Below, piece after piece: positions 23,027-32,777 of a DNA stretch of 35,975 bases. The stretch is from Candidatus Bathyarchaeota archaeon. Lineage in GTDB: Archaea; Thermoproteota; Bathyarchaeia; 40CM-2-53-6; FEN-987. The translations under genes and the position numbers were made by a program. The stretch is from the NCBI GenBank assembly GCA_022865625.1, contig JALHTB010000075.1:1-35975 (forward strand), written 5' to 3'. Position 1 is the stretch's first letter; every line of letters starts with the position of its first letter. A model generated the notes under the pieces. The model did no database searches and was not told where the DNA came from. It saw only the letters and a program-made list of their open reading frames with translations.

Positions 23027-24880
23027 ATGCCGCTGATGGGTTACTCCAAGATTGCAGAAGTTGACCTTACTTCAAGAAAGGTAGTGACGAGAGAGGTCGA
23101 CGAGAAGCTCGCGTACGAGTACTTGGGAGGTAGAGGCTGGGCTGCGTCGACAATCTTCGAGAGAGTCTCTCTCAAGACTAGACCGCTCGATCCGAAGAAC
23201 ATAATCGTCGTGGCCGCGGGGCCACTGACAGTGCCGAATTTCCCCGGCGGATCCAAGACGACTTTTGCCTCGATCAGTCCCCAGACGGGCATCTATGGCG
23301 ACAGCAACGTCGGAGGATTCTTCGGGCATAGACTCAGAAAGGCAGGATTTGACGCACTCGTCATAGAAGGCGCTTCGAAGAAACCTGTCTATCTGTCAGT
23401 CATCGATGGTGAGATCGCAGTAGACGACGCGGGTGAGCTCTGGGGTAAGAGCTCGAGTGAGGCTGATCGCACTCTAAGAGGGAAGCATGGGGAAGAAGCA
23501 TCTGTGGCCAGTATTGGTGTCGCCGGAGAGAACCTTGTCACCTTCGCATGCGTGAACATCGATTGGGACCGCACCAAGACCCGGCATGGACAGGCCGGCC
23601 GGACTGGAATCGGCGCAGTCATGGGAGCCAAGCGACTGAAGGCGATTGTTGCGAAGGGTTCCAGAGACGTTCAACTCGCTTATCCGGATAGGCTCGCTGA
23701 GATCTACAAGAAATCACTGGATATCATCGTCCACAATCCAATCTACAAGACTTGGATGCGCCAGGGCACCATGAGTGTCATCGAATGGGCCAACGAAGTT
23801 GAATCTCTACCCACGCTGAATTTCCAGAAGACACATTTCGATCAGGCCCGTCAGATCGGCGGCGATGCTATGGAGGCGACCAAGGTCAAGAGCAGGCCAT
23901 GTTCGAATTGTCCGGTTCCGTGTGAACACGTGAGTCGAGTGAAGGACGAAACTGGCCGCGATATCGAGATCGGTGTGGAGTACGAGAACGCAGCACTACT
24001 CGGAGCCAACCTTGGGCTGCGAAACATCAGCGATGTGGTCCGAGCAAACTATCTGGCAGATGAACTCGGCCTGGACACGATCACAGCCGGCAGCGTCATC
24101 GCTTTCGTTCTGGAAGCCTACGAGCGAGAGTTCGTGTCAAAACGTCAGATTGGATTCGAGCCGAGGTTTGGAGACTTGAACTCGGTGCTGAAGTTGCTCA
24201 CGATGATCGCGCACAGGAAAGGGTTCGGTGATTTCATGGCCTGTGGCGTGAGATCGTTGGCTCAGAAGGTTGGAAAAGGCTCGTCTGAGTTCGCGATGCA
24301 GGTCAAGGGCTTAGAGATTTCAGGATACGATCATCGAGCGGCCCCGGCCATGGCGCTATCATATGCAACCGCAGACATTGGAGCCCATCACAACCGATCA
24401 TGGGCGATCACGTACGATCTGCAGGTAGGCCGAGACAGCTACAGCGACGACAAAGTCGACCGAGTCATCTATCTCCAGCACTTGCGACCGCTCTTTGACA
24501 TGCTTGGCGTCTGCAGATTCCATTGGGTCGAACTTGGCATGGACCCCAACCTGTACGCTGAGGCTTACTCTGCGGTGACCGGGAAGCAGTTCACCATCGA
24601 GGAATTACTCAAGAAATCGGAGCGGGTCTGGAACTTGACCCGAACAATAGCAGTTCTCAGAAAGGGAATCTCAGCAAAGGACGACATGCCTCCCGAAAGA
24701 GACTTCGTTGATCCCATACCCAACGGCAAGACGAAGGGCATGAAGCTTGACAAGGAGAAGTTCACGAGCATGCTTCAGACGTACTATAGCAGGCGAGGAT
24801 GGGATAAAGAAGGAAGACCCACAAGAGAGAAACTCAACGAGCTCGGGCTGACACAGGCTGCGGCGAGAATCTACGGCTAG
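23027..24880 (+). CDS. aor: Tungsten-dependent aldehyde:ferredoxin oxidoreductase
   Basis: AOR-family enzyme that oxidises aldehydes to acids (or the reverse) with ferredoxin, using a tungsten bis-pterin and one [4Fe-4S] cluster. The 617-residue protein starts with the strand GYSKIAEVDLTSRKV and has YLGGRGWAA (pterin contact) and AAGPLTVPNFPGGSKTTFAS. GRTGIGAVMGAKRLKAI follows at about 195-212. Cluster cysteines are in RPCSNCPVPCEH (CxxCxxxC, about 290-300), with the fourth in MLGVCRFHW (about 494). The length is typical. The start is ATG 23027; ATG 23036 is also possible. Substrate subtype (AOR, FOR, GOR or benzoyl-type) cannot be told. No tungsten transporter or pterin gene lies alongside. 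Confidence 0.93.
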   Translation: MPLMGYSKIAEVDLTSRKVVTREVDEKLAYEYLGGRGWAASTIFERVSLKTRPLDPKNIIVVAAGPLTVPNFPGGSKTTFASISPQTGIYGDSNVGGFFGHRLRKAGFDALVIEGASKKPVYLSVIDGEIAVDDAGELWGKSSSEADRTLRGKHGEEASVASIGVAGENLVTFACVNIDWDRTKTRHGQAGRTGIGAVMGAKRLKAIVAKGSRDVQLAYPDRLAEIYKKSLDIIVHNPIYKTWMRQGTMSVIEWANEVESLPTLNFQKTHFDQARQIGGDAMEATKVKSRPCSNCPVPCEHVSRVKDETGRDIEIGVEYENAALLGANLGLRNISDVVRANYLADELGLDTITAGSVIAFVLEAYEREFVSKRQIGFEPRFGDLNSVLKLLTMIAHRKGFGDFMACGVRSLAQKVGKGSSEFAMQVKGLEISGYDHRAAPAMALSYATADIGAHHNRSWAITYDLQVGRDSYSDDKVDRVIYLQHLRPLFDMLGVCRFHWVELGMDPNLYAEAYSAVTGKQFTIEELLKKSERVWNLTRTIAVLRKGISAKDDMPPERDFVDPIPNGKTKGMKLDKEKFTSMLQTYYSRRGWDKEGRPTREKLNELGLTQAAARIYG

Positions 24881-24983: not shown

Positions 24984-25985
24984 TTGCTGCTCGCGACCGA
25001 AGATGTGGGTAGTCTTCCAGTTCTGGATGATTTCGACGAAAGCAGAGCCAATTTCAATCGAACTGTCGTTGACAAGGTCTCAATAGGACTGGACTATCCG
25101 TGCTGCCCTCAGCTCACAGGCACGTCGTCGAAGCCAATGAACATGGGCCTCCAGTTTCTCCTGCCACTCTCCAAACTCAATCTAGGAATTGAAGTGAAAG
25201 GCGAAGATGTCCACATTCTATCGGATGAGGTCAAAGAGACATCTGTGCCGATCGGGACGGAACGAGCAGAGTACTACCTCAGGTTCCTTCGTGAGCAAGG
25301 ACTGATCTCCAAAGTGAAAGGAGCAAAGGCTTGCGTTACAGGCCCCTTCACACTTGCCAGTTATATTGACAGGAAGAACCTGATGACGTGTGGCGCGTCA
25401 AAACCGAATATTGTGACAGCGCTCGCCAAGATCCTGAGCAGATCATGCAGACGGTTAGGTGATCTTGGATTCGACTTGGTCAACATAGATGAACCATTCC
25501 TCTCAGTCATGCTCGGGCGCACTGTCCTCTTCAAGTACGATCAGAAGTTTGTTGTTGAGACACTGAACATGCTGATCAAGGAGACGTCATGTCTCTCCGC
25601 GATCCATGTCTGCGGCAGAATAACACCGTTGGTCAAGGCGGTTCTGCTGGAAAGTGAAGCGGACATTGTGGATCACGAGTTCGCAGGATCTCCAAGCAAT
25701 CTCAGCGCATACAGCAGAGAGGAGCTCGAAAAGGCCGGGAAGTTCCTCGCTTACGGGTGCGTGTCCTCGGTCAGTCCAAGAGTCGAGACAGTTGAAGAGA
25801 TCGTAGGCTCCCTGAACAGTGCGGTGAAGACATTCGGTCCGCGCGTCATAGTGAAGCCGGACTGCGGATTCGCCGGAATGCTAGGTATCCCAGATGCGTA
25901 TGGCATCGCTTTCGGGAAACTCGAGAATATGGTCGAAGCGGCTCGGCTCGTCGCCAAGTCGAGCATTTCGGGTAAGACTCCCTAG
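24984..25985 (+). CDS. Core MetE-type methionine synthase (short, C-terminal domain only)
   Basis: A 333-residue TIM barrel matching the catalytic half of cobalamin-independent methionine synthase. The zinc ligands fit the MetE set: His and Cys in IHVCGRI (about 207-209), Glu in VDHEFAGS (about 231) and Cys in KPDCGFAGM (about 293). ACVTGPFTLASY and LVNIDEPFLS are other family segments. Short archaeal forms lack the folate-binding N-terminal half and are thought to take methyl groups from corrinoid or other C1 carriers, making methionine from homocysteine. TTG 24984 is the only usable start, because an in-frame stop lies 30 bases upstream; no ribosome binding site is obvious. It follows the AOR gene by about 100 bases. 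The UROD-like methyltransferases share the fold but not this ligand spacing. Confidence 0.85.
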   Translation: MLLATEDVGSLPVLDDFDESRANFNRTVVDKVSIGLDYPCCPQLTGTSSKPMNMGLQFLLPLSKLNLGIEVKGEDVHILSDEVKETSVPIGTERAEYYLRFLREQGLISKVKGAKACVTGPFTLASYIDRKNLMTCGASKPNIVTALAKILSRSCRRLGDLGFDLVNIDEPFLSVMLGRTVLFKYDQKFVVETLNMLIKETSCLSAIHVCGRITPLVKAVLLESEADIVDHEFAGSPSNLSAYSREELEKAGKFLAYGCVSSVSPRVETVEEIVGSLNSAVKTFGPRVIVKPDCGFAGMLGIPDAYGIAFGKLENMVEAARLVAKSSISGKTP

Positions 25986-26030: not shown

Positions 26031-26150
26031 CTATGTGAATAGTATCTGGGTCAGGAACTTGTAGACTATCAGCCCGACGAGGAAGATCAGGTAGATTCTG
26101 AGGAACAGAAGTGCTGCTCTGACTGCCCTGGTCGTATGCACTCTAGGCAT
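26031..26150 (-). CDS. 39-residue single-TM miniprotein
   Basis: An ATG-to-TAG frame of 40 codons, 32 bases after the stop of the PRC/MgtE_N/CBS gene and on the same strand. The peptide has a basic N-terminus (MPRVHTTRAVRAA) followed by one continuous hydrophobic helix (LLFLRIYLIFLVGLIVYKFL) and a short polar end, the classic form of a small membrane subunit with its N-terminus inside. AGGATG lies about ten bases before the ATG, a modest ribosome binding site. I recognise no family. Position suggests a third component or regulator of the NRAMP/CBS metal-transport cluster. It could be a chance frame, but clean hydrophobicity plus positive-inside charge and tight spacing argue for a gene. Confidence 0.5.
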   Translation of the reverse strand: MPRVHTTRAVRAALLFLRIYLIFLVGLIVYKFLTQILFT

Positions 26151-26182
26151 ATCTTCTTACATCCTGATCGCGTAGTTCGATG

Positions 26183-27517
26183 CTACTCCTCCGGCAGGAA
26201 TACATCTTTCTCCCTTATCACGCCCACGATCTTCTCTGAATCGCCCACTACAGGAATCGCTCTGAAACGATACTTGCGGAAGAGGGCCTCGACATCGGCA
26301 CGCATGGTTGTGGGCGCGACAACTACAACGTTTCTTGTCATGATCTCTTCGAGTTTGCGCGAAGGATCAGCCTGCAAGAGCTCGTTGATATCTATAACGC
26401 CTCTCAGATGACCCTCGTTGTCGACAACGTAGATGTACATGGTGACATCGCAGCTGCGTGCTTCAGTTCGGAATCTCGTGAATGCATCCTCAAGTGTGAT
26501 GTCGCCCGGGAATCCTAGATAGCAGCGCATCGCAAGAGTCGATGCGGGAACATCATGTTGGCTGAGGAGTTGATGGACCTTGGAAGCCACATCTCCCTTC
26601 AGTATCTTCAGGAATTCCTCGGAATCATCTCGTGGTAGAACTGAGATTATGTCAGCGATCTGGACAGGCGACAGATGTGTGAAGATTTGAGCTGCTCGCT
26701 CAGAGCTCGTCAACGCTAGGATTTCTCTCTGAACTCTAGGTTCAGTTGCCTCAAGAGCGTCGGCGGCAACCTCGTTATCTAATGCATTGAAGAGGTGTAT
26801 CCTCTCTTCTTGGCTGAGCTCTTCGAGTATGTCGGCCAGGTCCTCGGGATGGATGTCTTTGAGGCCCTCTCTTGTGATGGTGAGTTTCACATCTCCCTTG
26901 GTCCCTGTGAGATCTGCCGGCAAGGATTGAACATATCGCCAGGGTATGATGTCCTCCTGTGAGCCGTTCTCAAGCACGGATTTGGCGATTCTTCCGAAGC
27001 CGAGCCGGCGCATGGTCGCGTGTCTACCCACGTCTGCTCCGACAACGAATAGCTTGTCTTCGACGAGTAGAAGCTGTATGTCATAGACCACTTCGACGTC
27101 GAATCCTTCGATGTCGAGGATTCTCTTGTCGAGGATCTTGTCTCGTAGGAGAAGCTGGTCTCCGGCGTGTTTGATCTCTGGATACTTGCCTTCGGGCGGG
27201 TCTTTTATGACAGTCTTCTCTCTCGTCACACTGACAACATTGCTCCAGGAGACATGCAGAGGAGGGCGACCAAGCGAGCGTTCGATGATTATGCTCGATA
27301 CTTCAGGGTAATGCGGGTCGTCCTTGATCACCATGTCTTTTAGTTTGCCGACTGTTACACCGCTCTGGGTCTGAACTTTCTTGTTGACCACTTCGCTTAG
27401 GAACAGGTATCGCGTGGTCTTGTTCGGCTCGAGTGAGGCTTTCAGAATGTGCTCTCGAATCTGATTTGACCTTACTGACACTTCTGACCGCCTCTGGGCT
27501 GAGATTGTACTATGCAA
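26183..27517 (-). CDS. Soluble PRC-barrel / MgtE_N / CBS-pair regulator
   Basis: A 444-residue protein with no membrane span. Two PRC-barrel-like domains come first: about 36-105 (YLFLSEVVNKKVQTQSGVTV onward) and about 115-205 (LLLRDKILDKRILDIEGFDV onward, ending IIPWRYVQSLP). An MgtE N-terminal superhelix follows at about 218-320 (IHPEDLADILEELSQEERIH, HLSPVQIADIISVLP). A CBS pair occupies about 325-440, with TRNVVVVAPTTMRADVEALF and KYRFRAIPVVGDSEKIVGVI. In MgtE channels the N-domain and CBS pair sense Mg2+ and gate the pore, but here the pore domain is absent. The gene starts 17 bases after the NRAMP-like transporter, whose last codons carry a GGAGG. Start TTG 27517 follows an in-frame stop; GTG 27481 with AGGCGG ahead is an alternative. 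Confidence 0.9.
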   Translation of the reverse strand: MHSTISAQRRSEVSVRSNQIREHILKASLEPNKTTRYLFLSEVVNKKVQTQSGVTVGKLKDMVIKDDPHYPEVSSIIIERSLGRPPLHVSWSNVVSVTREKTVIKDPPEGKYPEIKHAGDQLLLRDKILDKRILDIEGFDVEVVYDIQLLLVEDKLFVVGADVGRHATMRRLGFGRIAKSVLENGSQEDIIPWRYVQSLPADLTGTKGDVKLTITREGLKDIHPEDLADILEELSQEERIHLFNALDNEVAADALEATEPRVQREILALTSSERAAQIFTHLSPVQIADIISVLPRDDSEEFLKILKGDVASKVHQLLSQHDVPASTLAMRCYLGFPGDITLEDAFTRFRTEARSCDVTMYIYVVDNEGHLRGVIDINELLQADPSRKLEEIMTRNVVVVAPTTMRADVEALFRKYRFRAIPVVGDSEKIVGVIREKDVFLPEE

Positions 27518-27534
27518 TCAATCATTTGTCGGCC

Positions 27535-28818
27535 TCATCCTCCTAATAAGTCAGGGAAGATCGTCGAGATGCCATACAAGGACGAGACCGCGATCACCGC
27601 GACGACGATTGCCCAATCTATCACGTTCTGGAGCTTTGTGTTCACGTATGGACCCATCAATTCCTTGTCGTTCAGCAGCAGAATCAGGAACACCAAAGCC
27701 GCAGGTAGGAGGGTTACAGCTACGACCTGTACGAAGAGCGTAATCAGCACGGAGGGTACGTTCGGAATCAGAACGATTGCCCCCGCAAGCGCGACGTTAA
27801 GGAAGTAGAACAGGTAGAACCAAGGAGAGCTCTTCACTTTGACATTCAATGTATGTGCCCATCCGAAGACCTCCCCAAACGCCCACGAAGATGCCAGAGA
27901 GATGCAGATCGCACCTAGCAGACCCGCATCGAACAGACCGATGGCAAACAGTGCTCCCGCGTACTGCCCAGCAAACGGAACTAATGCGAGTGCTGCCTCG
28001 GATGCCTCTGTGATGTTTACGCCAATCTTGTGGAGAGTTGAACCGGTGGCGATCATTATGAATGCTGCGCCGAGACCTGTCAACATCGAGCCGAGCGCAG
28101 TGTCGATCTTGGAGTAGGGAATGTCCTTCTCGTCGAGCCCCTTGTCGACGACTGCGCTTTGCTGGAAGAACAGCATCCACGGCGCGATCGTGGTTCCAAT
28201 ATTCGCCATTATCAACGTCAGGAGACCCGCAGTTAGGCCGGCTGGGAAACTCGGAGAGACAATGCTGCGAGTAACCTCGCTCCAGCTAGGGTTTGCGAGG
28301 AAGGCGGCTGGTATGTATACAAGGTTGAGAAGGCAGAAGACGAGCGTTATTCTCTCGAAGGTCCAGTATGTACCTGAGGCCACAAGCACCGTCAGAAAAA
28401 TGACAGATGCGACGATCGTCAATAGAGGAGGTATCCCGAAGATGCTGGCCGCTGCGACCATGCCTATGAACTCAGTGACGAGCGTCAGGAAATTGACGAG
28501 CGTCAAGTCTATCAACGAGAACCATCCCCAGAACGGGCCGAAGCCGTCAAAGATCGCCTCTGCATGGCCCCGCTTGGTTACGGCGCCGAGACGGACAGTC
28601 ATCTCCTGAACGAAGTATGCAAGTATCGCGAATAGCACTACCAGCCAGACTAGATTGAACCCGTAACGGGATCCGGTGACCGCGTAGGTAGTGATGCCTC
28701 CCGCGTCATTGTCGGCAACCATCACTATGATGCCGGGTCCCGCGATGGCAGAGAATATGGCGAGGCGCTTCCATGCGCGCCTGTAAAAGTAGTAGAGTCG
28801 CGGTACCAATTTCATCAT
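27535..28818 (-). CDS. Variant NRAMP-family divalent metal transporter
   Basis: A 427-residue membrane protein with about eleven predicted spans and the NRAMP (SLC11) layout. In the first span the canonical DPGN metal motif is replaced: GPGIIVMVADNDAGGITTY aligns as DAGG. In the sixth span the canonical MPH becomes APW (GTTIAPWMLFFQQS), so both the metal-binding Asn and the soft-metal Met are missing. Loss of that Met is expected to favour hard ions such as Mg2+ over Mn2+/Fe2+, as reported for NRAMP-related magnesium transporters; ion choice here is inferred. The start is ATG 28818 with GGCGGTGGA directly ahead; the next codon is also ATG. Downstream on the same transcript lie a soluble MgtE_N/CBS protein and a one-TM peptide. 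Confidence 0.9.
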   Translation of the reverse strand: MMKLVPRLYYFYRRAWKRLAIFSAIAGPGIIVMVADNDAGGITTYAVTGSRYGFNLVWLVVLFAILAYFVQEMTVRLGAVTKRGHAEAIFDGFGPFWGWFSLIDLTLVNFLTLVTEFIGMVAAASIFGIPPLLTIVASVIFLTVLVASGTYWTFERITLVFCLLNLVYIPAAFLANPSWSEVTRSIVSPSFPAGLTAGLLTLIMANIGTTIAPWMLFFQQSAVVDKGLDEKDIPYSKIDTALGSMLTGLGAAFIMIATGSTLHKIGVNITEASEAALALVPFAGQYAGALFAIGLFDAGLLGAICISLASSWAFGEVFGWAHTLNVKVKSSPWFYLFYFLNVALAGAIVLIPNVPSVLITLFVQVVAVTLLPAALVFLILLLNDKELMGPYVNTKLQNVIDWAIVVAVIAVSSLYGISTIFPDLLGG

Positions 28819-28959: not shown

Positions 28960-29058
28960 ATGAAAACATGCGATAACTGCGCAGATTCAGGAAGGCAGTG
29001 CGGGCAAAGTGCTCATTGCGTAAGGCATCAACAGGATCGTTGCGTCTTGTCCATGTAA
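28960..29058 (+). CDS. Possible 32-residue cysteine-rich peptide
   Basis: A short plus-strand frame beginning MKTCDNCADSGRQCG with five cysteines in 32 residues (CxxC, then three more), suggesting a zinc-binding or disulfide miniprotein. GAGGTGA at 28941-28947 is a near-perfect archaeal ribosome binding site, though 12 bases from the ATG. A weak TATA-like AATTAAGG sits near 28910. The gene overlaps the 3' end of the larA gene on the opposite strand by about 70 bases, which weakens the case. No family recognised. The remaining gap 28819-28940 shows nothing else. Confidence 0.3.
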   Translation: MKTCDNCADSGRQCGQSAHCVRHQQDRCVLSM

Positions 29059-30225
29059 TCGGAGAGCGTGATCCAACGCTTCCTGTGGCTTCCTGAAGGT
29101 CTTGAAGATGACCGGGTTCGCTTCAGCCATCTTGTCGGAGACGACTATGATCTCTGCTCGCTTCGCGATTTTGCTGAGTGCGTACGTCTTGTGGGCGCCA
29201 AGAATGAACTGTTTGCTGAGTTTGTCTCGTATTTCGTCGAGGGTGGAGGCGTTCTTGGTCCAGTTCTCGAAGATGGTGTTGCCGTAGCCTTCGCGGCATT
29301 CGGCTGCGACTATTATGGTTCCGCCGGTTTTGACGGCGTGGGATGCGTTCTCAATCGCCTTGTGGGCTTGGTAGAGATTGATGTCCCGTGGATAGCCGCC
29401 AGCACTCGCGACGACTATGTCCGCGGGTTCCTTGATGAAAACCTTTGCGAAATTGTCCACGAACTTTGATGCTTGTCGATGCGCGGCGATTGGATCGCCT
29501 GCAAATGCCGCAACAATTCGATTCGCTTCATCCAAGACCACGTTGACGACAAATCGGAGTCCGGTCATTCGTCCTGCTTCTTCGAGGTCCTCGCGGACCG
29601 GGTTCTGTTCTATCACGCCGGGTTCGGAGTTTGGCAGCGTCATGAGGCTGTGGTTTCTCTCTATCGTCTCCTTTCCCGCCATGCCGGGGACAACGGCCTT
29701 GTAGCCGCCAGTGTACCCGGCGAAATAGTGAACATCAACATTCCCGATAGCTAGCACGAAATCCGCATCCGAGATCAAGGGATTGACTGAGACTCTCGTA
29801 CCGCTCTTCGTGGTGCCTATGAACTGCGCCGAGCCCATCTCGTGATCTACAACGTGTGGAATCGAATTCGCATATTCACCGAGGAGCCTCCTCCTCTCAG
29901 CTGAAGTATGTCCTCTATGAGTTCCGGTAGCGAGTACAATCCGAACATTGTCGCGAGTGACACCTGATGACTTCAGCGAATGCATGACCTGTGGAAGGAT
30001 TCTCTGCGTTGGGCAGGGTCGAGTGATGTCGCTGACGACCAGAGTCATCTTGCGTTTTTGGTCGACGAGTTTCCCAAGGGTTTCGGTTCCGATGGGTGAG
30101 GCGAGTGCTTCCTCAAGTTTTGGGCCGTGCCCAGTGATCGCCTTTGGCTTCAAGACTCCTAACAGCCGGCTCTTCGGAATTTGAAGCCTCACCAGGCGCC
30201 TGCCGTATTTCAGAGAGACTTGCAC
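28987..30225 (-). CDS. larA: LarA-family (nickel-pincer) racemase
   Basis: A 412-residue member of the lactate racemase family. Residues expected for the nickel-pincer nucleotide enzyme are present: SDITRPCP (Asp66, Arg69), ATGTHRG (His103), HYFAGYTGGYKAVVPG (His166 and Lys176, the Lys that is covalently linked to the pincer in LarA), NHSL (His192), and YQAHKAI near 295 (Gln and Lys). It racemises or epimerises a 2-hydroxy acid; relatives include malate, phenyllactate and sugar-acid enzymes, so lactate is not assured. The cofactor-making larB, larC and larE genes are not in the window. The start is GTG 30225, with GGGAT eight bases ahead. It stands alone between the metal-transport cluster and the surface protein. 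Confidence 0.92.
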   Translation of the reverse strand: MQVSLKYGRRLVRLQIPKSRLLGVLKPKAITGHGPKLEEALASPIGTETLGKLVDQKRKMTLVVSDITRPCPTQRILPQVMHSLKSSGVTRDNVRIVLATGTHRGHTSAERRRLLGEYANSIPHVVDHEMGSAQFIGTTKSGTRVSVNPLISDADFVLAIGNVDVHYFAGYTGGYKAVVPGMAGKETIERNHSLMTLPNSEPGVIEQNPVREDLEEAGRMTGLRFVVNVVLDEANRIVAAFAGDPIAAHRQASKFVDNFAKVFIKEPADIVVASAGGYPRDINLYQAHKAIENASHAVKTGGTIIVAAECREGYGNTIFENWTKNASTLDEIRDKLSKQFILGAHKTYALSKIAKRAEIIVVSDKMAEANPVIFKTFRKPQEALDHALRLHGQDATILLMPYAMSTLPALPS

Positions 30226-30356: not shown

Positions 30357-32777
30357 TTAGTGGATCGTCAGCAGGCGTATTATCACTTTCGAGGTAGTCA
30401 GAGCTGAGACCGCTAGGCTAGTGAGGACGATCGCTGATGTCGCGCCCATCATCAGGACAACAGGAGCATCAAGAGTCACTGCCAGTGCCGTAGTGATGAG
30501 AGCTAGTAGCAGGGCTGCTGATAATGAGACTACGAGCTTTCTACGCGCTCGACGTGCCTTTGCGGAATATGTGAACAGTAGCGTTAGCGGGACAGACAAG
30601 TAAACCGAGCCTATTAGGGAGCTTACGACCAGGCCAGTGATCACCGCGCTAGTTTCTTGGCTTGCCGGGGCAAGATGGAATATTGCTCCGCCGATTCGTA
30701 GGATCCCGATAAGCGGGTATAACGCGAGTTTCACGACAGTTCTGACAGTTGGATTTTCACGTATGAACGCTGCAACGATTGGGCTGAATGAGTAGTACCA
30801 AGCGTCGAAGGCGATCATGAAGCTTGATCCCGTTCTAGTTGTCAGAATTGACTCGTCACGGAAGCTCCTCAACAACTGAACCTCGTCTGACAGTTCACTG
30901 CCGTAAGTGGCCGTTGCAATCAAGCAGCCTCCTGTGACTTGGGCTGTGAGTGTTGTGTTTCGAGTGAGTGCGCCGTCGCTTCCGGAAATCGTGAGGATGT
31001 AGGTTCCCTGAGGCGCTCCGGACAGGTTGATCGTGGCGGTCGAGAGTGCGGTCCCCCCTATCGGCGGTCGCACAGGATTCGGTTCGAACACTAGCGCCAT
31101 GCCCTCTGGCATGCCGGAACCTGCCAACTGTACTGGTGAGGAGAACACTCCCAGCGATTGAACTGTGATCGCAGCGGATCCGGATCCTCCTGGAGGAATC
31201 GACAGGTAGGATGGGGAAACCACGATCGCGAAGTCAGCTATTCCTGCAGCGATTGTCACTTCAACCTCCGTGGTGTGATTCAAGGACCCACTTGTCCCCG
31301 TTACTCGGAGCTTGTATGTCCCTGTGGAGGCTGCGGGACCTGCTGAGATGATCAGCGCCGAGAATACGCCTCTGCCGGGAGGCGGAGTCACGGGGCTCGG
31401 GAGCGTGTAGGCCACGCCGTCTGGTATCGTTCCCAACCATGAGCCTGCGAGTTGAACGGTTGATGAGAACCCATCGACCGAGGTTACTCTGCATGTGCTT
31501 GTGACGTTAGCGTTTTGAATGACGCTCAACGATGACGGATCACACTCGACGACGAAGTTTGACGCTAGCGAGAGTCTCGCCACCTTGGATGAGGATTCAA
31601 GTATCCAAACTTCGCCTGATGCGTCAACAACAATGTCCTGAAGCCCAGCCTCCAATGACCACTCTTGGAAATGCTCATCGCTCGTCATCGTCGGAATGCT
31701 CGTTGTCGGAGCGACTTTGACAGTTGACGGCAGCACCGGCCCAGCCACATGCGTGAAGAAAGCTGCTCCTGCAGGGTCGGACCGTACTTTGGTGGGTTGT
31801 ACGTTTGTGATTATCCCTCCGCCGGAGGGATCAAGCTTCGCGACCTTGTCTTCGCCTTGCTCCGTGATCCAAGGGTTCTGCGTTAGCGGATTGATGCTGA
31901 TGGCTTGTGCGTTCGCGCCGGGTGTTGGGACTTGCCACTCCGTGAACATGTTGTCACTCCGGAGCACTCCGACATAGCTGCTGGCGCCGATCGCTTGAGT
32001 GCTCGCTGAGGTATACCAGACTTGACCTAGGGCATCGATGTCGACGAAGGCGGCTTTGGTTGAAGTATGAGGTGGAATAGTCCACGTGGTGAACTGTCTC
32101 GTCGCGCTTTCCCATTTGACGATAGCATTCGTGCCTGCGAACCATATGGCGCCTGAAGTTGCATGGACGCCTTTCGCTCCGCCACCAGCAGCGGCTGGAA
32201 GTGCTAGTTCATTCATTCTGAGGGTGCCTAGCGATGGGTCGTAGATGACTTGACCCACAGAGTCGCCAATGCCAGTGAACCATGCTTTGACCTGCGGGCC
32301 CTCAGGCTCAATTGAGGTGTACAGTGGACCGAAATCCGGAGGCAACGTGTACTCTCTGAAGATGCCCGTGTTGGGGAAGAAGAGGAACACTTTGTCCTTC
32401 GCATTCTCGGTGCCGAGAACCGCGATCGACCCTGATATCATTGTCAAAGCCAGACTCGTCGGCTTCGAGTCGGGAGTCGGAATCGTCCATTCTTGGAACG
32501 TGTCTGTAGACGGGTCAAGGTGAACCACCTTGCTGCCGGATGATTCCACAAACCAACAGCATTCCCCCGACGGATCCAATGCCAACCCCATTGGGAGATT
32601 GTCCGGAGTCGGGATCGTCCACTCGGTCAGCACGGCGGTCGCTTCATCGCCGAGACCATGCGCTTGTCCAACAAGGCGAGATGAGACAGCAGCCGTGAAC
32701 GGCGCCGCTGTCAGAATAAGCATGAGAATGAATGATGCCTTACGTGGGAACGTATGACTTCTCAACCCGCCCACCAA
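30357..32777 (-). CDS. Exported beta-propeller surface protein with Ig-like repeats and CFI-box membrane tail
   Basis: An 806-residue exported protein. A signal peptide covers about residues 10-38 (basic start, then SFILMLILTAAPFTAAVSS). Residues ~45-400 form a Vgb/streptogramin-lyase-like beta-propeller with a recurring blade edge: TEWTIPTPDN, QEWTIPTPDS, REYTLPP, TTWTIPPH, TEWQVPTPG, QEWSLEAG. Two Ig-like domains of about 95 residues follow, each with FSS(T/P)VQLAGS. Near residue 620 is CLIATATYGSELSDEVQ, a Cys-Ile-Ala-Thr box seen in many archaeal envelope proteins. After it come several C-terminal membrane spans, so the propeller is displayed outside the cell. Lyase activity is unlikely to be implied; binding of sugars or peptides is more probable. 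The start could be TTG 32777 or GTG 32774. Confidence 0.85.
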   Translation of the reverse strand: MVGGLRSHTFPRKASFILMLILTAAPFTAAVSSRLVGQAHGLGDEATAVLTEWTIPTPDNLPMGLALDPSGECCWFVESSGSKVVHLDPSTDTFQEWTIPTPDSKPTSLALTMISGSIAVLGTENAKDKVFLFFPNTGIFREYTLPPDFGPLYTSIEPEGPQVKAWFTGIGDSVGQVIYDPSLGTLRMNELALPAAAGGGAKGVHATSGAIWFAGTNAIVKWESATRQFTTWTIPPHTSTKAAFVDIDALGQVWYTSASTQAIGASSYVGVLRSDNMFTEWQVPTPGANAQAISINPLTQNPWITEQGEDKVAKLDPSGGGIITNVQPTKVRSDPAGAAFFTHVAGPVLPSTVKVAPTTSIPTMTSDEHFQEWSLEAGLQDIVVDASGEVWILESSSKVARLSLASNFVVECDPSSLSVIQNANVTSTCRVTSVDGFSSTVQLAGSWLGTIPDGVAYTLPSPVTPPPGRGVFSALIISAGPAASTGTYKLRVTGTSGSLNHTTEVEVTIAAGIADFAIVVSPSYLSIPPGGSGSAAITVQSLGVFSSPVQLAGSGMPEGMALVFEPNPVRPPIGGTALSTATINLSGAPQGTYILTISGSDGALTRNTTLTAQVTGGCLIATATYGSELSDEVQLLRSFRDESILTTRTGSSFMIAFDAWYYSFSPIVAAFIRENPTVRTVVKLALYPLIGILRIGGAIFHLAPASQETSAVITGLVVSSLIGSVYLSVPLTLLFTYSAKARRARRKLVVSLSAALLLALITTALAVTLDAPVVLMMGATSAIVLTSLAVSALTTSKVIIRLLTIH

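Follow-up and report, generated by a model that had tools for sequence, protein, structure and literature searches.

A conserved one-helix miniprotein encoded beside, or fused to, NRMT-type SLC11 transporters: analysis of an archaeal nrmT locus

Introduction

NRMTs, the Mg2+-type members of the SLC11/NRAMP transporters, carry the binding-site signature DxxG-TxxA/T, and EleNRMT, which was much better behaved than the rest of the 82 homologues tried, transports Mg2+ on its own (PMC8806188; for all papers given by PMC number, statements refer to those parts of the source on which we draw). According to Shin et al. 2014, the genes of most NrmT-group members have a neighbour whose product is homologous to the N-terminal domain of MgtE, and feedback regulation by this MgtE-N-like partner was offered as a speculation (PMC4072509). 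In the same work, Mn2+ uptake was fully restored by the A. capsulatum NrmT, which has an MgtE-like neighbour, but Mg2+ uptake only poorly; this transporter was apparently mainly a Mn2+ carrier, and co-expression of the pair gave no better Mg2+ rescue. In the MgtE channel, the Mg2+ ligands of TtMgtE are E59, D91, D95, D226, D247 and D250 (PMC5882242). Here we describe a locus of Candidatus Bathyarchaeota archaeon (assembly GCA_022865625.1, contig JALHTB010000075.1, positions 1 to 35,975; this whole stretch of 35,975 nucleotides is called the window), which encodes an NRMT (gene nrmT), a soluble PRC/MgtE_N/CBS protein and a 39-residue miniprotein with one membrane helix.

An earlier note on this DNA had pointed out the three open reading frames and had stated that its author knew of no described system with this division of labour. 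The observation was real and its novelty was misplaced: the pair of an NRMT gene and an MgtE_N-like gene has been known since 2014, together with the idea of regulation (PMC4072509), and it is the miniprotein that is new. Judged from the comparisons below, it appears to be an accessory helix that is widespread and belongs to one of the two main branches of the NRMTs sampled.

Results and discussion

Conservation of the miniprotein

The miniprotein is encoded at 26031..26150 on the minus strand and consists of 39 amino acids with one hydrophobic membrane helix and an LRIY motif. A tblastn search with this sequence revealed same-operon relatives in other genomes (E 4.5e-8 for locus L005 and 5e-5 for L001), and further relatives in archaea and bacteria were recognized by inspection and with profiles. 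In nine loci (L001-L009; eight from Thermoplasmata and one from a 'bacterium'), a miniprotein of 56-57 residues is encoded between nrmT and the soluble gene and begins 3-6 nucleotides past the nrmT stop; over the 18 loci measured, separate miniproteins begin 0-72 nucleotides past the transporter stop. Upon alignment of 17 miniproteins including that of the window (alignment A4), R37 and Y39 were found to be the sole invariant positions, both located inside the membrane helix. The window miniprotein is a short version that starts beside a proline conserved in most of the family, and it shows the features by which we define the family, namely one helix with R-x-Y that is either beside or fused to an NRMT.

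Pairwise comparison of the relatives gave nonsynonymous divergence (dN) of about 0.02-0.29 against synonymous divergence (dS) of 0.2-1.9, with dN/dS of roughly 0.02 to 0.3; the sample comprised 7 chosen archaeal pairs and the Bacteroidota pairs with dS below 2, so that these values describe the relatives and not the window copy. By these ratios, the miniprotein family is under purifying selection. The peptide with one membrane helix seen in the earlier note is therefore a conserved protein, as evident from the tblastn matches, the profiles and the invariant R-x-Y. A chance open reading frame was also considered, and it was ruled out by the conservation and by the dN/dS of the relatives. Neither Pfam nor NCBIfam contained a convincing family for the miniprotein, with single-member matches at E 0.03 or worse being all that was returned. 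Among 1571 miniprotein candidates from the protein database, 879 matches were obtained at E up to 1, of which the best 120 were viewed. The literature searched yielded no report on either the miniprotein or a fused terminal helix.

A further candidate was translation past the nrmT stop into the miniprotein, as the two genes share a frame in all nine loci L001-L009. It was rejected on the grounds that the frames differ in other loci and that a Shine-Dalgarno explanation suffices. In six of the nine loci, the last nrmT codons contain GGAGG at Shine-Dalgarno distance from the miniprotein start, and the variants are GGGGG (L001), GGAGT (L006) and GGTGG (L009); this Shine-Dalgarno-like sequence may explain the constant frame.

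Linkage of the miniprotein to the transporter

The distribution of the miniprotein was followed in the phylum of genome G003 (here Thermoplasmatota, 292 genomes) and in the phylum of genome G298 (here Bacteroidota, 148 genomes), with counts taken from inspection together with the profile search; a regular expression had overlooked some of these miniproteins. The window NRMT was matched in 39 Thermoplasmatota genomes at E up to 1e-5. Ten of them carry NDAGG-type NRMTs with 43-64% identity, and all ten have the miniprotein beside the transporter. The other 29 genomes were assigned to other NRAMPs (37% identity or less), few of these matches having been inspected (L080 in G268 and L081 in G291). 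No miniprotein was found at L080 and L150, which encode DVDAP-type NRAMPs. Within the family of G003, the miniprotein is present in 9 of 103 genomes, each time beside NRMT sequence. The A4 profile, which includes rows from some of the searched genomes and so is a better test of absence in other genomes than of presence in these, gave one more Thermoplasmatota match at E up to 0.001. This match lies in G187 (L128), where the NRMT sequence is spread over several frames and the miniprotein behind it contains an in-frame stop and lacks the motif arginine. The transporter and the miniprotein look as if they had decayed jointly in this genome, an assembly error being possible.

In Bacteroidota, a threshold of E 1e-60 gave an NRMT in 15 genomes. 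Twelve of these (13 loci) encode NRMTs that are 61-63% identical to that of the window, and the miniprotein is present in 13 of 13 loci; the gene order is nrmT, miniprotein, soluble gene at 12 loci, and L102 alone has the order nrmT, soluble gene, miniprotein, as in the window. At the four loci of the remaining three genomes (37-38% identity), no miniprotein was found and a six-frame profile search gave nothing under E 0.3; in three of the four, nrmT is preceded by the soluble gene. A weak match with an internal stop in G490 (E 0.001) was regarded as noise. The mini-type NRMTs of Bacteroidota (L091-L102 and L105) are closer to the window protein than those of the nine Thermoplasmata-type loci (54-58%), but not closer than that of G074 (64%). 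Sequence relationships of this kind suggest that the NRMT cluster was transferred between archaea and bacteria.

The earlier note had proposed the miniprotein as an anchor or inhibitor; as an anchor, it would hold the soluble protein to the membrane or to the transporter. An anchoring role would suit the position of the miniprotein gene directly after the soluble gene in the window and in L102, and the basic N-terminal segment of most relatives could bind a soluble protein. However, five genomes of a second Thermoplasmatota clade, whose completeness is not given (G120, G178, G190, G227 and G251), contain an NRMT and a miniprotein, and no full-length soluble gene was found in them; there were weak CBS-region hits at E 4e-7 to 1e-4, with none in G178. 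Conversely, the three Bacteroidota loci mentioned above combine an NRMT with a soluble gene and lack the miniprotein, and the window miniprotein is almost devoid of a cytoplasmic segment. An anchor function is thus disfavoured, and we consider it very unlikely. The presence of the miniprotein and the NRMT without a full-length soluble gene in five genomes indicated that the miniprotein belongs to the transporter. These results showed that the miniprotein is linked to the transporter instead of the soluble gene.

Natural fusions of the miniprotein helix and the transporter

Of 54 plasmid records that matched, 19 were examined; these loci comprised four separate miniproteins, 12 fusions, one NRMT without a miniprotein (A. 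fastidiosus) and two proteins that are not NRMTs. A tblastn search of plasmids with a Bacteroidota miniprotein gave nothing at E 0.01, and the plasmid miniproteins were recognized through translations and the profile. The separate miniproteins of Citrobacter and Serratia are identical, unannotated and placed in the gap between the transporter gene and the CBS/MgtE-like gene, and those of Acidithiobacillus caldus and Acidiphilium multivorum are annotated as hypothetical proteins.

The fused NRMTs, found at 12 loci of 12 species, have 530-579 amino acids and end in W(R/T)MP...LRxYL; two of the 12 are open frames in unannotated Streptomycetaceae records. The miniprotein profile touched the tails of all 12 (domain E between 7e-7 and 0.07 when 19 proteins were searched), whereas none of 39 control NRAMP rows that lack such a tail was matched under E 1. 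Comparison by hhalign of a tail profile (A5, built from 10 of the 12 tails) with the A4 profile yielded a probability of 96% and E 5e-9; L138 and L140 were excluded from A5, as well as from the residue comparison described below. Of 46 successive segments taken along the alignment of 10 fused NRMTs, only the two at the C-terminus exceeded a probability of 4%. No fused NRMT was present among the best 120 of 7468 protein matches, the fusions having turned up among the plasmid relatives only.

Some small proteins are known to shield Mg2+ transporters from FtsH or to make them accessible to it (PMC10710835), and the size of the miniprotein would fit a trans-acting regulator of transporter turnover that is no standing part of the transporter, as MgtU, MgtS and MgtR are for P-type Mg2+ pumps. 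In contrast, a constant partner is indicated by the fused form, seen at 12 loci from 12 species, and by the one-to-one linkage, and the separate miniproteins start close behind the transporter stop. We therefore regard a turnover regulator as unlikely and prefer an accessory subunit.

In Citrobacter freundii (L131) and Serratia marcescens (L139), the cluster of nrmT, miniprotein and CBS/MgtE-like gene was located on large conjugative plasmids of the types IncHI1B and IncHI2A, with a transporter 61% identical to that of the window. Both clusters adjoin a P-type ATPase gene and a regulator gene, which is of the ArsR family in L131 and of the winged-helix type in L139.

Identity and phylogeny of the transporter

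The nrmT gene (27535..28818, minus strand) encodes a protein of 427 amino acids that matches Pfam Nramp at E 7e-83 and contains NDAGG in helix 1 and GTTIAPW in helix 6. The DAGG and TTIA segments agree with the NRMT signature. EleNRMT (7qia) was the closest solved relative with 257 bits, compared with 97 bits for the runner-up, and it was the sole NRMT among the solved relatives found. In the second of the two trees described below, the window transporter grouped with EleNRMT against other NRAMPs (49 NRMT rows versus 6, support 100/98). By sequence, the window protein is an NRMT, in line with the earlier note, which had described DAGG in place of DPGN, APW in place of MPH and an NRAMP of the Mg2+ type. 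Mg2+ would accordingly be the expected substrate.

A second tree was calculated from 55 transporters after removal of columns filled in fewer than 60% of the rows, the fused tails among them. The NRMTs with separate miniproteins (31 rows) formed one group (96/91), the fused NRMTs (12 rows) formed another (100/100), and the two were joined with support 98/94 (43 rows). The other NRMT branch contained five NRMTs without miniproteins and EleNRMT (6 rows). Possession of any miniprotein, separate or fused, corresponds to one change on this tree, EleNRMT not being counted; the group labels had been given to the rows before tree building, and near-copies were included. In the first tree (39 rows), 28 rows with separate miniproteins likewise stood together (100/99). 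The window transporter was sister to that of L102 (96/82), with which it shares the gene order and the short miniprotein. The partial NRMT of L007 is in no tree, and L139, whose miniprotein is identical to that of L131, was omitted from the second; L084 and L085 appeared in the first tree as long branches falling among the NRMTs and were omitted from the second.

Residue comparison revealed 21 positions at which at least 90% of 41 mini-type NRMTs have one letter that is absent in the 6 mini-less ones. Several of these positions are located in the loop between transmembrane helices 2 and 3 (TM2-TM3) and in TM3, including D104 of the window protein (41/41 versus 0/6). Counted from the cytoplasmic side, the invariant arginine of the miniprotein is located about seven residues deep in the membrane. 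A contact of D104 with the miniprotein is a lead only, as the six comparison rows form one branch and any clade difference would show. Tentatively, and as a rather improbable arrangement, one main NRMT branch may not be a one-chain transporter of 11 helices: the added helix, as a microprotein or fused, could be essential, and its arginine may pair with D104 and stand in for some of the charge network found in other NRAMPs, thereby setting Mg2+ selectivity or coupling.

Topology and structure models

In 16 of 17 separate miniproteins, there are more lysine and arginine residues before the helix than after it, and in L079 the net charge before the helix is 0. By the positive-inside rule, the N-terminus would be cytoplasmic. 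In all five fused proteins checked by hydropathy, an extra hydrophobic segment was found between TM11 and the fused helix; this segment would bring the chain back into the cytoplasm, which agrees with a cytoplasmic N-terminus.

An AlphaFold model of a chain reading through from the NRMT into the miniprotein had a mean predicted local distance difference test score (pLDDT) of 80 and a predicted template modelling score (pTM) of 0.81 over the whole chain, with a confident transporter. Structural alignment of this model to human NRAMP1, DMT1 and EcoDMT extends into the miniprotein helix, as would be expected if the miniprotein were the split-off twelfth helix of ordinary SLC11 proteins. Its predicted orientation is nevertheless opposite to that of the helix after TM11, the fusions hold an extra segment ahead of the helix, and a search of the PDB with the miniprotein profile gave no SLC11 chain up to E 10. 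We consider a split-off twelfth helix very unlikely on these grounds.

The soluble protein and the transported metal

The soluble protein is encoded at 26183..27517 on the minus strand, between nrmT and the miniprotein gene, and has 444 amino acids when started at TTG 27517 or 432 when started at GTG 27481. The gap of 17 bases to nrmT given in the earlier note applies to the TTG start and becomes 53 nucleotides if GTG is the true start. Of the lengths listed for the 65 closest homologues, 432 amino acids is the most frequent, and two homologues of this length (P0027 and P0044) begin at the equivalent of GTG 27481, where the gene may start; the three nearest relatives are listed at 445-451 amino acids, and the choice stays between the two codons. 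With Pfam support for nrmT and the soluble gene and a conserved family for the 39-residue frame, all three open reading frames of the window are real genes. The Rfam scan of the window gave no match at gathering scores, and thus no M-box at that threshold, and no tRNA.

Pfam identified PRC, MgtE_N and a CBS pair and no pore domain in the 444 residues, as had been proposed. A second PRC barrel, proposed at the same time, was not confirmed: Pfam found one barrel per protein, both for the window and for the 7 relatives scanned (under the curated cut-off in L026), the putative second region (residues 111-150) had pLDDT values of 29-51 per ten-residue block, and hhalign of the two putative segments gave a probability of 0.1%. 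The AlphaFold model of the soluble protein was weak (pLDDT 64, pTM 0.35). An MgtE-N-like gene adjoins the NRMT gene in the window, and the pair recurs in archaeal and bacterial relatives, confirming the predicted conservation of the gene pair. Relatives of the soluble protein are often labelled 'sporulation protein YlmC' or 'magnesium transporter', both of which are misleading; none were found in viral contigs.

The MgtE_N domain and CBS pair align with MgtE 2yvx over 233 residues (TtMgtE 16-249, offset 23). In all 17 soluble homologues aligned, the equivalents of D91, D226 and D250 are non-acidic, D250 lying just past the aligned stretch and being placed by ungapped extension; acidic residues occur at E59 in 9 of 17, at D95 in 16 and at D247 in 16. 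The idea of MgtE-like Mg2+ sensing thus holds for the domains and not for the ligand set: with three of six ligands missing, sensing in the manner of MgtE cannot be carried over unchanged. The protein may sense Mg2+ in a different way, or it may respond to some other ligand, for example a nucleotide bound by the CBS pair.

The same replacements would also suit a transporter that carries mainly Mn2+ or another metal, with the soluble protein sensing that metal, as would the full Mn2+ and poor Mg2+ uptake of A. capsulatum NrmT and the P-type pumps and ArsR or winged-helix regulators beside the Citrobacter and Serratia plasmid copies. Against this, the binding-site signature of the window NRMT is that of EleNRMT, a shown Mg2+ transporter (PMC8806188). 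We consider Mn2+ or another metal the less probable substrate, one that nonetheless keeps appreciable weight, and retain Mg2+ as the probable one.

Neighbouring genes

Upstream of nrmT, the window encodes a LarA-type nickel-pincer racemase (28987-30225, minus strand), for which the LarAH6 malate racemase model was nearest with 475.5 of 500 bits, just under the cut-off, and a large protein (30357-32777, minus strand) in which Pfam recognizes a Vgb-lyase-like region and NCBIfam a CFI-box domain at the C-terminus. On the other side, an aldehyde ferredoxin oxidoreductase gene (23027-24880) is followed by a gene for a MetE C-domain-like protein (24984-25985), both on the plus strand.

A model of the locus

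Taken together, we think it likely that the miniprotein is an accessory membrane subunit of the NRMT and that the soluble protein is an optional regulator. The locus would then encode an NRMT-type importer of three parts, probably for magnesium, in which the NRMT is the transporter proper. The single helix of 39 residues, with its N-terminus in the cytoplasm, would pack against the NRMT and stabilize or tune it, and in some bacteria the same helix is built in as the C-terminal part of the transporter. In keeping with the 2014 proposal, the PRC/MgtE_N/CBS protein would serve as a cytoplasmic regulator and be optional. The miniprotein is probably an overlooked part of the transporter machinery.

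Several observations weigh against this model. The profile matches to single fused tails are weak, and the tree program warned of long branches that meet. In the read-through model, the miniprotein helix has moderate pLDDT values of about 66-76 over most of its length, and its docking is not usable as evidence since the join forces its N-terminus outside. In G300 (L089, the same sequence as L007), the NRMT beside an intact-looking miniprotein is cut by the contig end and lies in two frames, owing either to a sequencing error or to a broken gene. Additionally, NRMTs of the other branch function without a miniprotein as far as is known, EleNRMT doing so alone (PMC8806188), and the acidobacterial NRMT with an MgtE-like neighbour rescued Mn2+ better than Mg2+ (PMC4072509).

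If the mini-type branch needs a further helix or a second chain, its NRMT genes tested alone may represent an incomplete transporter. The solved EleNRMT comes from the branch without miniproteins. Two-chain and fused-chain NRMTs offer a natural comparison through which the effect of a one-helix protein on a LeuT-fold transporter could be addressed.

Comparison with known systems

The locus is most similar to the NrmT and MgtE-N-like operons of PMC4072509, with which it shares the transporter type, the kind of neighbour and the proposal of feedback. In contrast, neither a miniprotein nor a fused terminal helix is mentioned in the parts of that paper used here, and the word 'archaea' has 0 occurrences in its main text. 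The MgtE channel (2yvx; PMC5882242) has the MgtE_N domain and CBS pair in common with the soluble protein, which differs in the missing pore and in the non-acidic equivalents of D91, D226 and D250. EleNRMT (7qia; PMC8806188) has the same DAGG/TTIAPW binding site as the window NRMT; it has 11 membrane segments and belongs to the mini-less branch. Finally, MgtU, MgtS, MgtR and AcrZ, as covered in the parts of PMC10710835 cited, are likewise tiny protein partners of transporters, but their transporters are others, and the miniprotein helix also occurs fused to its transporter.

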